Below are positions 34,386 to 37,980 of a stretch of DNA of 64,000 nucleotides, piece after piece. Position 1 is the first letter of the stretch. Each line of letters starts with the position of its first letter. The stretch is from Bdellovibrio sp. GT3 (GTDB taxonomy: Bacteria > Bdellovibrionota > Bdellovibrionia > Bdellovibrionales > Bdellovibrionaceae), in NCBI RefSeq assembly GCF_037996765.1, contig NZ_JBBNAD010000004.1:620001-684000 (forward strand), read 5' to 3'. The position numbers were made by a program, and so were the translations under genes. Under the pieces are notes generated by a model. That model saw nothing but the letters and a program-made list of their open reading frames with translations. It was not told where the DNA came from and made no database searches.

Positions 34386-35837
34386 ATGTCTTTGAAGATT
34401 TACAACTCTCAGTCACGACAATCCGAAGAGTTTGTTCCCTATGATCCGAAGCACGTAAAGATGTATGTGTGCGGACCGACGGTCTACAATTTTCTGCATG
34501 TGGGTAACTTCCGTGGGCCGGTTGTGTTTAATATGGTTCGTAATTGGTTGGAGTACTTGGGTTACAAAGTAACCTATGCGCTGAACTTCACAGACGTAGA
34601 TGATAAAATCATCAATAAAGCCAATGAACTGGGCATGAAACCAGTTGAAGTTTCTGAGAAGTATATCGCTGAATACAAGAAAGACTTCGCAAGCTTGGGG
34701 CTGCGTGCGCATGATATGAACCCTAAGGTGACAGAGCACATGGAAGACATCCTTTCCATGGTCGGCACACTGATCGACAAAAAAGTGGCCTACGAAGCGC
34801 AAGGCGACGTGCTTTACTCGATCGAAACCTTCAAAGACTATGGCAAACTTTCTGGTCGTCATACAGATGAGCTTCTGGCGGGAGCCCGCGTGGAAGTGGA
34901 CGAGAAAAAACGTTCACCGATGGACTTCGCTTTATGGAAGTCTGCAAAACCAGGCGAGATTTCCTGGCCGTCTCCGTGGGGGCCGGGACGCCCTGGCTGG
35001 CATATTGAGTGCTCAGCGATGATCAAGAACATCTTCGGTGATCAGATCGACATTCATGGCGGCGGTATGGATTTGATTTTCCCGCATCATGAAAATGAGA
35101 TCGCGCAATCTGAAGGCTGCACTGGCAAACACTTCGTAAAATACTGGATGCACAATAACATGCTGAACTTTGGTGGTCAGAAGATGTCAAAATCTTTGGG
35201 CAACATAGTTTCTTTGCGTGATTTCGTGGCGATGTATAATGCTGAGATCTACAAGTGGATGATTCAATCCGTGCACTATCGCACGATGAGTGAGTTCGGT
35301 GATGCGGCGGTGGAGCGTGCTATTTCTGGCTTGGCCCGTGTGTATTCGGCAATGGCCATGGCAGAAAGCTATCTGACGCCCGAAGTGACAGCAGTGGATG
35401 CGGGCTTTGCTAAAATCACGGACGAAGCTTGGAAAAAAGTAGAGTCGGCGATGAATGATGACTTTGGAACGCCTGAAGTATTTGCGTCGATGTTCGAAGT
35501 GGTTCGCCAGTTCAACAGCCAAGTTCGTCGCGGCATGAAGGCCAATCCTGCGATCCAAGGCAAGGCCTTGGTGTTCAGTCAGTTTATCAAAAAAATGGGC
35601 TCGATGCTGGCGATGTTCCAAGAGCCGGCTCATGATTTCCTGATTAAGCTGGATGACATGTTATTGGATAAAGCCGGTATCAAACGCGCTGATGTCGATG
35701 CGGTTGTTGCTGAGCGCGGGCAAGCTCGAGTGAATAAAGACTTTGCTAAGTCAGATGAACTTCGTAACAAGCTTGTGGCGATGAACATTTCTGTGAGCGA
35801 TACGCCAGAAGGTTCCTTCTGGGAAGTCACAAAATAG
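34386..35837 (+). CDS. cysS: Cysteinyl-tRNA synthetase
   Basis: 483 aa. It charges tRNA-Cys. Motifs: CGPTVYNFLHVGNFRG (Zn Cys and HIGH), GRPGWHIECSAM and HGGGMDLIFPHHENE (zinc ligands), KMSKSLGN. It is close to gltX and therefore in the same operon. The window also holds the cognate tRNA-Cys gene at 61998, which has an odd elbow, so the pair is worth reading together. Confidence 0.96.
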   Translation: MSLKIYNSQSRQSEEFVPYDPKHVKMYVCGPTVYNFLHVGNFRGPVVFNMVRNWLEYLGYKVTYALNFTDVDDKIINKANELGMKPVEVSEKYIAEYKKDFASLGLRAHDMNPKVTEHMEDILSMVGTLIDKKVAYEAQGDVLYSIETFKDYGKLSGRHTDELLAGARVEVDEKKRSPMDFALWKSAKPGEISWPSPWGPGRPGWHIECSAMIKNIFGDQIDIHGGGMDLIFPHHENEIAQSEGCTGKHFVKYWMHNNMLNFGGQKMSKSLGNIVSLRDFVAMYNAEIYKWMIQSVHYRTMSEFGDAAVERAISGLARVYSAMAMAESYLTPEVTAVDAGFAKITDEAWKKVESAMNDDFGTPEVFASMFEVVRQFNSQVRRGMKANPAIQGKALVFSQFIKKMGSMLAMFQEPAHDFLIKLDDMLLDKAGIKRADVDAVVAERGQARVNKDFAKSDELRNKLVAMNISVSDTPEGSFWEVTK

Positions 35838-35844
35838 AAAATCG

Positions 35845-36044
35845 AAAACTGGCCCCCGAGAGTGTGGCGGCCAGTATCCCAAACTTTCATAAACCCAAAG
35901 GACTTCAATTATTTACGACACGGCCATCCGGGCCTCACTGCGCGAACTTACCGCTTCGTGCGGGCGCAGAGGTCGTAAATAATTGAAGTCCTTTGGGTTT
36001 AAGAAAGAAGTAGAATTAGTTCGCCACACTCTCGGGGCCAGTTT
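35845..36044. repeat. Nested inverted repeat between cysS and the glycosyltransferase
   Basis: The inner pair 35890-35919 / 35972-36001 is a perfect 30-bp inverted repeat, extended by five more bases past one mismatch. The outer pair (AACTGGCCCCGAGAGTGTGGCG-type) at 35846-35869 / 36022-36043 is inverted with a one-base indel. The 52-base core holds GGCC-ATCCG-GGCC and a CTGCGC...GCGCAG stem with CCGC-TTCGT-GCGG inside. The whole forms a ~200-base snapback. There is no T-run on either side. Confidence 0.85.
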
Positions 36045-36103
36045 CTAAACATTACATAACTTAATGCAGAACCGATGTCGGTTCCGCACGGCAGCAAGGG
36101 TGG

Positions 36104-37888
36104 TTAAGAGCTTTTGCTTTCGATTGCAGTCGGAGTTTCAAATATTCTTACGACTGCCTTTATACGTTCGATGATGAAGACGATGCCGAGGCTGCTCCAC
36201 ATCAGAATGACTCCGTCAAAAGGAGCGCGGAAACGATTTTCTGATTTAAAAATGTAAACGGTGAAAAAGATCGTCAGCATAAGTAAGGCGCTGACCTCGG
36301 CGTAGTTATTGCGACGGCGGGCAAAGGCCAGGGCGCCCAGCAATGCCAATGGCAACAATCCCCATTCAAATACCGGTGCCCAAATGTCGTACATGAATCC
36401 AACCTTGGATCCCGAGATGGGCCAAGTGCTGTTGCCATAGAATAAGTAGTTAATAAAACGCAGACTCTCGACCATCACCCAAGGATTTTCACGAACACAT
36501 TCGGCGCCAGCCTTCCAAAAGTAGGCTTGATCGGTGAAGGGGCGATCCCATTTTTTGAAAGCAGTTTCATTTAAAGTGACGAAGAGAGGTGACATCCACG
36601 AAGAGCCCGAGGAGTCGGCGTTGTTCTTCCAAGGGCATTTTCCCTCGACAAAATTCAATGCGCCGGCAGTGGGGCCCCATTGCATTTGGTTGTAGGCGAT
36701 TTTGGTAAATGCCAGATGGGGAGTCATGACCAAAAGGCAGCCCAATGCCATCATCGAGACTTTCAAAACGGCGTTTTTAAATTGAGCACGTTCACGATAC
36801 AACAGCCATAAGCTGAATGCCGGAATGAAGAACGCATGGTTGCCCTTGAAATAGAACGACACCATCATCAAAATTCCCACGATGAAGTAGTCGCGCATAC
36901 GCGAAGACTCCAAGGCCTTCATAATCCACCACAGTGTGGCCATTATTAAAAAGCTATAAGGGGATTCTGCCATATAGCGCGCGGTGAATCCGATTTGCGG
37001 GACGTCCAGTGCGACAAACAGCAAGGTCAGAAATGCGGCAGCTTTACCAAAGTTTTTCAGCACCAATAGATAAGCCAGCAGCACTGTGCCCATGGAAACA
37101 AAGATGCTGACCCATTTGTGCAATTCCCAATCTCCTGCAAGTCTTAATAGCAGACCGTAGACAGTGTATCCGATAGGTTGAAATGTCTGGCCTGCATCGA
37201 AGGATCCACGAAGCATTTGTATCCCGCGATGAAAGTAGGCCGCCATGTCCGAGAATAGAAACATCTCTGGTGGCATGGCGATTTGTGTGGTCCAAAAGCG
37301 CAGGAGAAAGGCCAGGATAAAAATGCTGATCACCGGGATCTTCCAGCGATCACTATCAACGGGAAGCTTTGCCCACAACATTCCGGCCAAGGCGAGACAA
37401 AGGATGATCATACCGAAAACTAAAGGGGGCGCACTCCAGTCTTTATCCAGATAAAAACCAAAGCTTCCGCCAAAGGAGTCACCGGTCAAATTCCAGGTTG
37501 TGGTTTTGCCAAGGACATTCGTGCTTGAATAAAGCGGCAGGCCGCGTTCGTTATTACAGCGGATATCGGGTGAAGTGGGGAGTTTCCAACTAACGCTGTC
37601 AGTGGAGAGGCTGTTAATGCAGCTCAAAGTTCTAAGTCGAAGGTGTTTTAAGTTTAAAAAATCCGGCAAGTAAGAGGCACTGGTTTTAAACTTTATCCAG
37701 AAAAGTCCCCCCTCGTCGGGATTGTAGTCTTTCATAATCAATGAAGTCGGAGCGTTGTACTCGGTCACCAGATTGGGACGGACAACTTCAATGTTTTCCA
37801 TTTTCGGTGTCAGCAATTGAAACCAGTTCAGGCACAAAACTCCAATAAATAGACTGAACCAAAACAGACGCGTTCTTGCAATTTCCAT
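36104..37888 (-). CDS. GT-C-type membrane glycosyltransferase (GT39/ArnT-like)
   Basis: About 594 aa. One N-terminal membrane anchor, a ~120-residue extracytoplasmic segment with two cysteines, then at least nine membrane helices. The SDMAAYFHRG loop after the first helices provides the acidic residue expected in GT-C enzymes, which use polyprenyl-phosphate sugars. A late loop (NFVEGKCPWKNN...) is periplasmic and contains Cys. By family it would add a sugar to a protein or lipid outside the inner membrane. The start at 37888 is chosen because the anchor follows directly; ATG codons at 37912 and 37924 are also possible. The gene ends close to the nested inverted repeat. Confidence 0.78.
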   Translation of the reverse strand: MEIARTRLFWFSLFIGVLCLNWFQLLTPKMENIEVVRPNLVTEYNAPTSLIMKDYNPDEGGLFWIKFKTSASYLPDFLNLKHLRLRTLSCINSLSTDSVSWKLPTSPDIRCNNERGLPLYSSTNVLGKTTTWNLTGDSFGGSFGFYLDKDWSAPPLVFGMIILCLALAGMLWAKLPVDSDRWKIPVISIFILAFLLRFWTTQIAMPPEMFLFSDMAAYFHRGIQMLRGSFDAGQTFQPIGYTVYGLLLRLAGDWELHKWVSIFVSMGTVLLAYLLVLKNFGKAAAFLTLLFVALDVPQIGFTARYMAESPYSFLIMATLWWIMKALESSRMRDYFIVGILMMVSFYFKGNHAFFIPAFSLWLLYRERAQFKNAVLKVSMMALGCLLVMTPHLAFTKIAYNQMQWGPTAGALNFVEGKCPWKNNADSSGSSWMSPLFVTLNETAFKKWDRPFTDQAYFWKAGAECVRENPWVMVESLRFINYLFYGNSTWPISGSKVGFMYDIWAPVFEWGLLPLALLGALAFARRRNNYAEVSALLMLTIFFTVYIFKSENRFRAPFDGVILMWSSLGIVFIIERIKAVVRIFETPTAIESKSS

Positions 37889-37980
37889 GTCCCTGCATTT
37901 ATTCAATGTCATGAATGGCTGCAAGTTACTAACCAGTCATTTTTGACTGGGTTCAAAATGTTGGGATCAGTCCTCAAACA

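Follow-up and report, generated by a model that had tools for sequence, protein, structure and literature searches.

The window, a stretch of 64,000 nucleotides from Bdellovibrio sp. GT3, holds between two convergent genes an element of about 200 bp, in which there is no transposase-sized ORF. Two nested inverted repeats enclose a structured centre, and the locus is organised as follows (coordinates are those of the window).

34386 to 35837, plus strand: cysS, the upstream neighbour, whose stop codon lies about 7 nt before the element.
35845 to 35869, plus strand: left terminal inverted repeat (AAAACTGGCCCCCGAGAGTGTGGCG), which over 33 nt is an 88% match to one end of an IS1-like element (G000:C5:1472441).
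35884 to 35919, no strand assigned: left stem arm, of a sequence specific to the locus, unlike other copies and pairing with its own partner.
35920 to 35971 (52 nt), minus strand as the likely functional one: conserved apex core, a three-way junction, delineated from the alignment, pair counts, covariance model R1 and strand asymmetry.
35922 to 35934, minus strand: apex hairpin 1, GGCC-ATCCG-GGCC on the plus strand, loop CGGAT on the minus strand.
35938 to 35969, minus strand: apex stem 2, with a 7-nt bulge and a terminal hairpin, CCGC-TTCGT-GCGG on the plus strand, loop ACGAA on the minus strand.
35972 to 36007, no strand assigned: right stem arm, likewise specific to the locus, unlike other copies and pairing with its own partner.
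36022 to 36045, minus strand: right terminal inverted repeat, reading GAAACTGGCCCCGAGAGTGTGGCG on that strand, with an end motif as in IS1-like elements.
36049 to 36088, no strand assigned: dispersed REP-like hairpin (GCAGAACCGATGTCGGTTCCGCA) beside the element, common to the two closest copies.
36104 to 37924, minus strand: gene for a PMT_2-like membrane glycosyltransferase, the convergent neighbour, which has the likely folded strand on its downstream side.

The initial annotation of this DNA had described a perfect inner repeat of 30 bp, a near-perfect outer repeat and a 52-base core folding on its own, and all three are indeed present. Pairing of the outer arms (35845-35869 with 36022-36045) is perfect over 16 nucleotides and continues for about 8 more beyond a one-C bulge, the inner arms (35884-35919 and 35972-36007) are 36 nt long and 97% complementary, their inner 30 positions being perfect, and the core forms two small hairpins. 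In a scan of the 64-kb window for inverted repeats within 250 bp, the arms of the element were the longest at such fidelity. Folded as RNA, the region 35838-36060 reaches -121.6 kcal/mol on the plus strand (z -14.9) and -125.9 kcal/mol on the minus strand (z -14.1), and none of 200 shuffles was as stable on either strand. The terminator scan found no T-run or intrinsic terminator at the element, in line with the earlier view that it is not a simple terminator, and no promoter-like match was found there. No Rfam family matched the window copy at gathering score, and a loose threshold gave nothing credible for the other copies.

Further copies are present in the same genome. A second copy lies on contig C6 (20638-20819), with a near-identical apex and with stems that differ yet pair with themselves. 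At a third site, C5:1472441, the match is confined to the outer arm, and the place is the end of an insertion sequence. The REP-like hairpin also abuts the C6 copy, and has many further matches in the genome, mostly to a shorter stretch. As the exact core pattern (GGCCATCCGGGCCTCACTGCGC) had no match in the genome contigs, a degenerate apex pattern was used instead. It retrieved 26 copies in 11 of 24 congeners, against none for a reversed control pattern, and 5 matches, all titled Bdellovibrio sp., in the GTDB species set, which may omit records very near the window genome. The covariance model R1, built from these 26 apices, matches 23 of the 24 congeners and, across the class, 52 of 144 genomes; its E-values are only approximate, and any match scoring under about 45 bits is tentative. 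Among the weak matches, three (L169-L171) share the apex and have an additional hairpin within the bulge. A tRNA origin of weak matches of 93-98 nt was discarded, ARAGORN finding no tRNA at the six loci tested. The element is thus neither a single copy nor devoid of conservation, whereas the initial annotation had named a single, unconserved copy with no transcript as the outcome that would speak against it. We found no earlier description of the family in the part of the literature that was covered, and this element family in Bdellovibrio appears to be previously undescribed.

The insertion sequence at C5:1472441 encodes a 300-aa transposase, has matching ends and is flanked by a duplicated target. 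The best NCBIfam match of the partner transposases is IS1 (NF033558, E 2e-9 to 2e-14), at 37-54 bits, below the curated cut-off of 100 bits for IS1 family membership, and we therefore call them IS1-like only. This transposase family is found in 60 of the 144 genomes of the class, with many copies having AAACTGnCCC-like ends. In a related genus, genome G029 carries eight related MITE copies, three of which (L144, L145 and L146) are flanked by perfect 9-bp target duplications (TATCGAGTA, AAACTAGAA and TGAAAGGCT, respectively), those of the remaining copies being imperfect or absent, all as read by eye. The G029 copies (L142-L149) share ends and apex, and differ over some 15 bp in the middle of the stem, where both arms have changed jointly. 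No target duplication is recognisable at the window copy. After cysS, the element is absent from all 19 congeners readable there (as read from the region downstream of the gene), among them G011, G022 and G021, whose CysS proteins are 93-95% identical. Since such close relatives lack it, the window copy most likely entered the lineage after those splits. It shares its ends with a transposase-encoding element, has no transposase gene, belongs to a set of dispersed copies and corresponds to an empty site in relatives. Judged from its sequence, it is a lineage-specific non-autonomous mobile element, as the MITE-like reading of the initial annotation had it.

The IS1-like elements may also shed light on the interior. 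In four of them (L183, L184, L185 and L186), the 200-260 bp separating the transposase stop codon from the right end form a single long hairpin, whose loops on the transposase-sense strand are of the NGGAN type; the tail of L187 is also a long hairpin, with a different centre. As model R1 does not detect these tails and strand energies are mixed (in L184 and L187, two of the five, the sense-strand fold is not the better one), kinship with the MITE hairpin is a reading of folds by eye, from which some IS1-like elements may carry a related hairpin after their transposase gene. In L173, L175 and L178, the tails are short and leave no room for a hairpin. Within the set L173-L212, 12 of 27 IS1-like elements begin 0-15 nt past the stop codon of an ORF that runs in their own direction; in a control with the end inserted at random positions, 1.6% did so. 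Such adjacency could reflect selection for harmless sites or true targeting.

The conserved part of the family is the apex. A 4-bp hairpin with loop NTCCN, then a 6-bp stem that has a bulge of 7 nt and ends in another 4-bp hairpin, form a three-way junction with two 5-base loops, kept between copies, that closes the long stem. The stems are near-unrelated between copies, even at orthologous sites, and about 90% still paired. At such sites (downstream of ssb, and at two rplL-rpoB places), most apex bins are about 80-100% identical, and many stem bins are at about 45-55% identity, with some 80-91% of paired cells still Watson-Crick. Both sides have changed in 18 of 27 pairs. Doubly changed cells number 132, where shuffles give 46.6, and the covariation score of 0.444 compares with 0.117 in shuffles (0 of 500 reaching it). 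The tested structure was drawn from the same sequences, which gives it an advantage over slid controls. A stem whose sequence changes and whose pairing stays points to a fold, of RNA or of a single DNA strand, that would be kept by selection. The idea that stem arms serve as guides to local targets was rejected, the longest word shared with the 1.4-kb flanks averaging 8.6, against 8.7 in the control.

The question arises as to whether selection is needed at all, as a palindrome may be maintained neutrally if template switching during replication repeatedly rewrites one arm from its partner (quasipalindrome correction), the fold then having no function. Nearly every stem change replaces one Watson-Crick pair fully by another, and wobble intermediates are very rare on the core strand, as this process would produce. 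Downstream of ssb, the 3' end of ssb is copied inverted in the outer arm (L044, L055, L079 and L137), clearly in G011, G021 and G022 and more weakly in the window genome, G000; such a copy is expected from outward copying. However, template switching leaves the conservation of apex loops across genera unexplained, and it is strand-symmetric, which the mismatches are not. In the ungapped stems of 65 copies, read on the complement of the apex as written (in the window, its minus strand), we counted GA 98, GU 59, GG 28, AA 8, CU 6, AC 5, UU 4 and CC 1. A symmetric process would not yield 59 GU against 5 AC, nor 98 GA against 6 CU. In 49 non-redundant copies, the counts are GA 70, GU 42, GG 15, AA 7, CU 3, AC 5, UU 3 and CC 1, and 28 of these copies have a GU, against 5 with an AC. 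The rule used to extend the stems scored only Watson-Crick pairs as matches, so that GU was not favoured; GA pairs recur at conserved places, so that their count is not independent and GU versus AC is the cleaner contrast. In addition, 49 of 70 copies fold better on the minus-equivalent strand. This asymmetry speaks against template switching as the sole cause, and we hold a purely neutral origin to be unlikely. A strong mutational asymmetry may also be a source of the mismatch bias. As far as sequences can tell, the bias implies selection on a single-stranded fold of the minus-equivalent strand, for which RNA would be the simplest molecule.

A fold acting at the DNA level, for instance a single-stranded hairpin formed in replication or transposition and read by the transposase as a signal, is another candidate explanation. 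GG, GT and GA, the tolerated mismatches, are also the most stable ones in DNA, the hairpin is retained in MITEs that have no transposase gene, and its orientation relative to neighbours is mixed. On the other hand, IS1-like transposases are DDE enzymes that act on double-stranded ends, members of the family bear terminal repeats of the ordinary kind together with 9-bp duplications, and the short tails mentioned above cannot accommodate the hairpin. We tend to consider a DNA-level role as rather unlikely.

The setting of the window copy, where cysS and the minus-strand gene converge on a hairpin that is extremely stable on both strands, suggests a bidirectional transcription barrier or a stabiliser of mRNA ends between convergent genes. 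The barrier proposed in the initial annotation may thus hold for this copy, but it does not explain the family: copies are also found ahead of genes, between genes of the same direction and behind genes already having a terminator. A terminator-type T-run is absent. If the hairpin stabilised the upstream mRNA, wobble pairs should be favoured on the core strand, and the reverse is observed. Sites are mixed: in many copies, 30-60 nt past a stop codon, the folded strand runs antisense to the gene, and others precede a gene in sense. Overall, we regard this explanation as distinctly unlikely. At several loci (L043, L059, L061, L070, L074, L078 and L122; between rplL and rpoB, among others), two elements face one another, with a constant relative orientation.

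We consider it likely, on the whole, that the element is a MITE moved in trans by IS1-like transposases, whose hairpin is selected as a one-strand fold, most likely of RNA. The IS1-like transposases of Bdellovibrionaceae would mobilise it in trans, and almost its whole interior is one long hairpin with the conserved three-way junction at its apex. This hairpin would be under selection as a single-stranded fold, that of the minus strand in the window and most likely RNA. In autonomous relatives, this RNA would be the 3' UTR of the mRNA for the transposase, and in the MITE the whole internal transcript. Stems would drift freely provided pairing holds, while the apex loops would be retained. The folded RNA would most likely be a protein-binding or RNase-protected module serving the element, and kept at some old sites. 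We infer here that the element is transcribed, that RNA rather than single-stranded DNA is the folded molecule, that it has a binding partner and that a benefit ensues. Of the structured RNA proposed in the initial annotation, the structured fold stands, and the RNA level is probable only. As the folded strand is often antisense to the neighbouring gene, its expression would require a dedicated promoter.

A more specific proposal, that the fold is the transposon's own functional RNA, with stems that drift freely, on which the spread or the choice of sites (often right after stop codons) of an IS1-like DDE element and its derived MITEs would depend, appears very unlikely at present. Two known identities were also considered. 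The architecture had prompted the idea of a retron, which was dropped, no reverse transcriptase being seen among the neighbours. Eight attack-phase sRNAs have been reported for strain HD100 (PMC3627812, Table 2); none overlaps the copies at 423496 and 3086139 of G006, which was taken as HD100, and a published HD100 sRNA was rejected on these coordinates.

How does this family compare with known systems? In ordinary MITEs, the ends are conserved and the interior is free, whereas here the centre is conserved, and the adjoining stems vary and covary. Members of the bcr1 (Bacillus cereus), Correia and BOX families are likewise short mobile intergenic repeats, folding stably when transcribed; their sequences are unrelated to the present element, and to our knowledge they keep their stem sequences, in contrast with stems that are near-unrelated between copies. 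CsrB and RsmY/Z, RNAs that titrate CsrA, present GGA in hairpin loops, and the folded strand has similar small loops (CAGGATG, CCGGATG), loop 1 being nearly always NGGAN and loop 2 usually NGGAN or ACGAN. CsrA is encoded in all 24 congeners. The present element, however, has two loops only, the second frequently reading CACGATG in place of a GGA motif, and long variable stems; a protein-binding RNA function by analogy with CsrA targets is offered as a lead only. With the IS1 family, the partner elements share the best NCBIfam match of the transposase and the 9-bp target duplication, but the matches are under the curated cut-off, the ends are AAACTGnCCC-like, and some have a structured tail of 200-260 bp after the transposase gene. 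Finally, IS-derived MITEs such as MITEAba12 (PMC6382973) are likewise small, intergenic and multicopy, without a transposase, have terminal inverted repeats matching a resident IS, and are flanked by target duplications, which are seen here in relatives.

For comparative work, the family is a clean example of a mobile element retained for how it folds rather than for its sequence, and it shows which strand should be tested. Should the RNA be expressed, Bdellovibrio would contain many related structured RNAs beside essential genes (ssb, rplL-rpoB, rpoD), and the element would be a candidate for a new regulatory or transposon-serving RNA in predatory bacteria, in which few non-coding RNAs have been described. 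Were the fold the transposon's own RNA, this would be a case of RNA-assisted transposition distinct from the IS200/IS605 and IS110 types already known.
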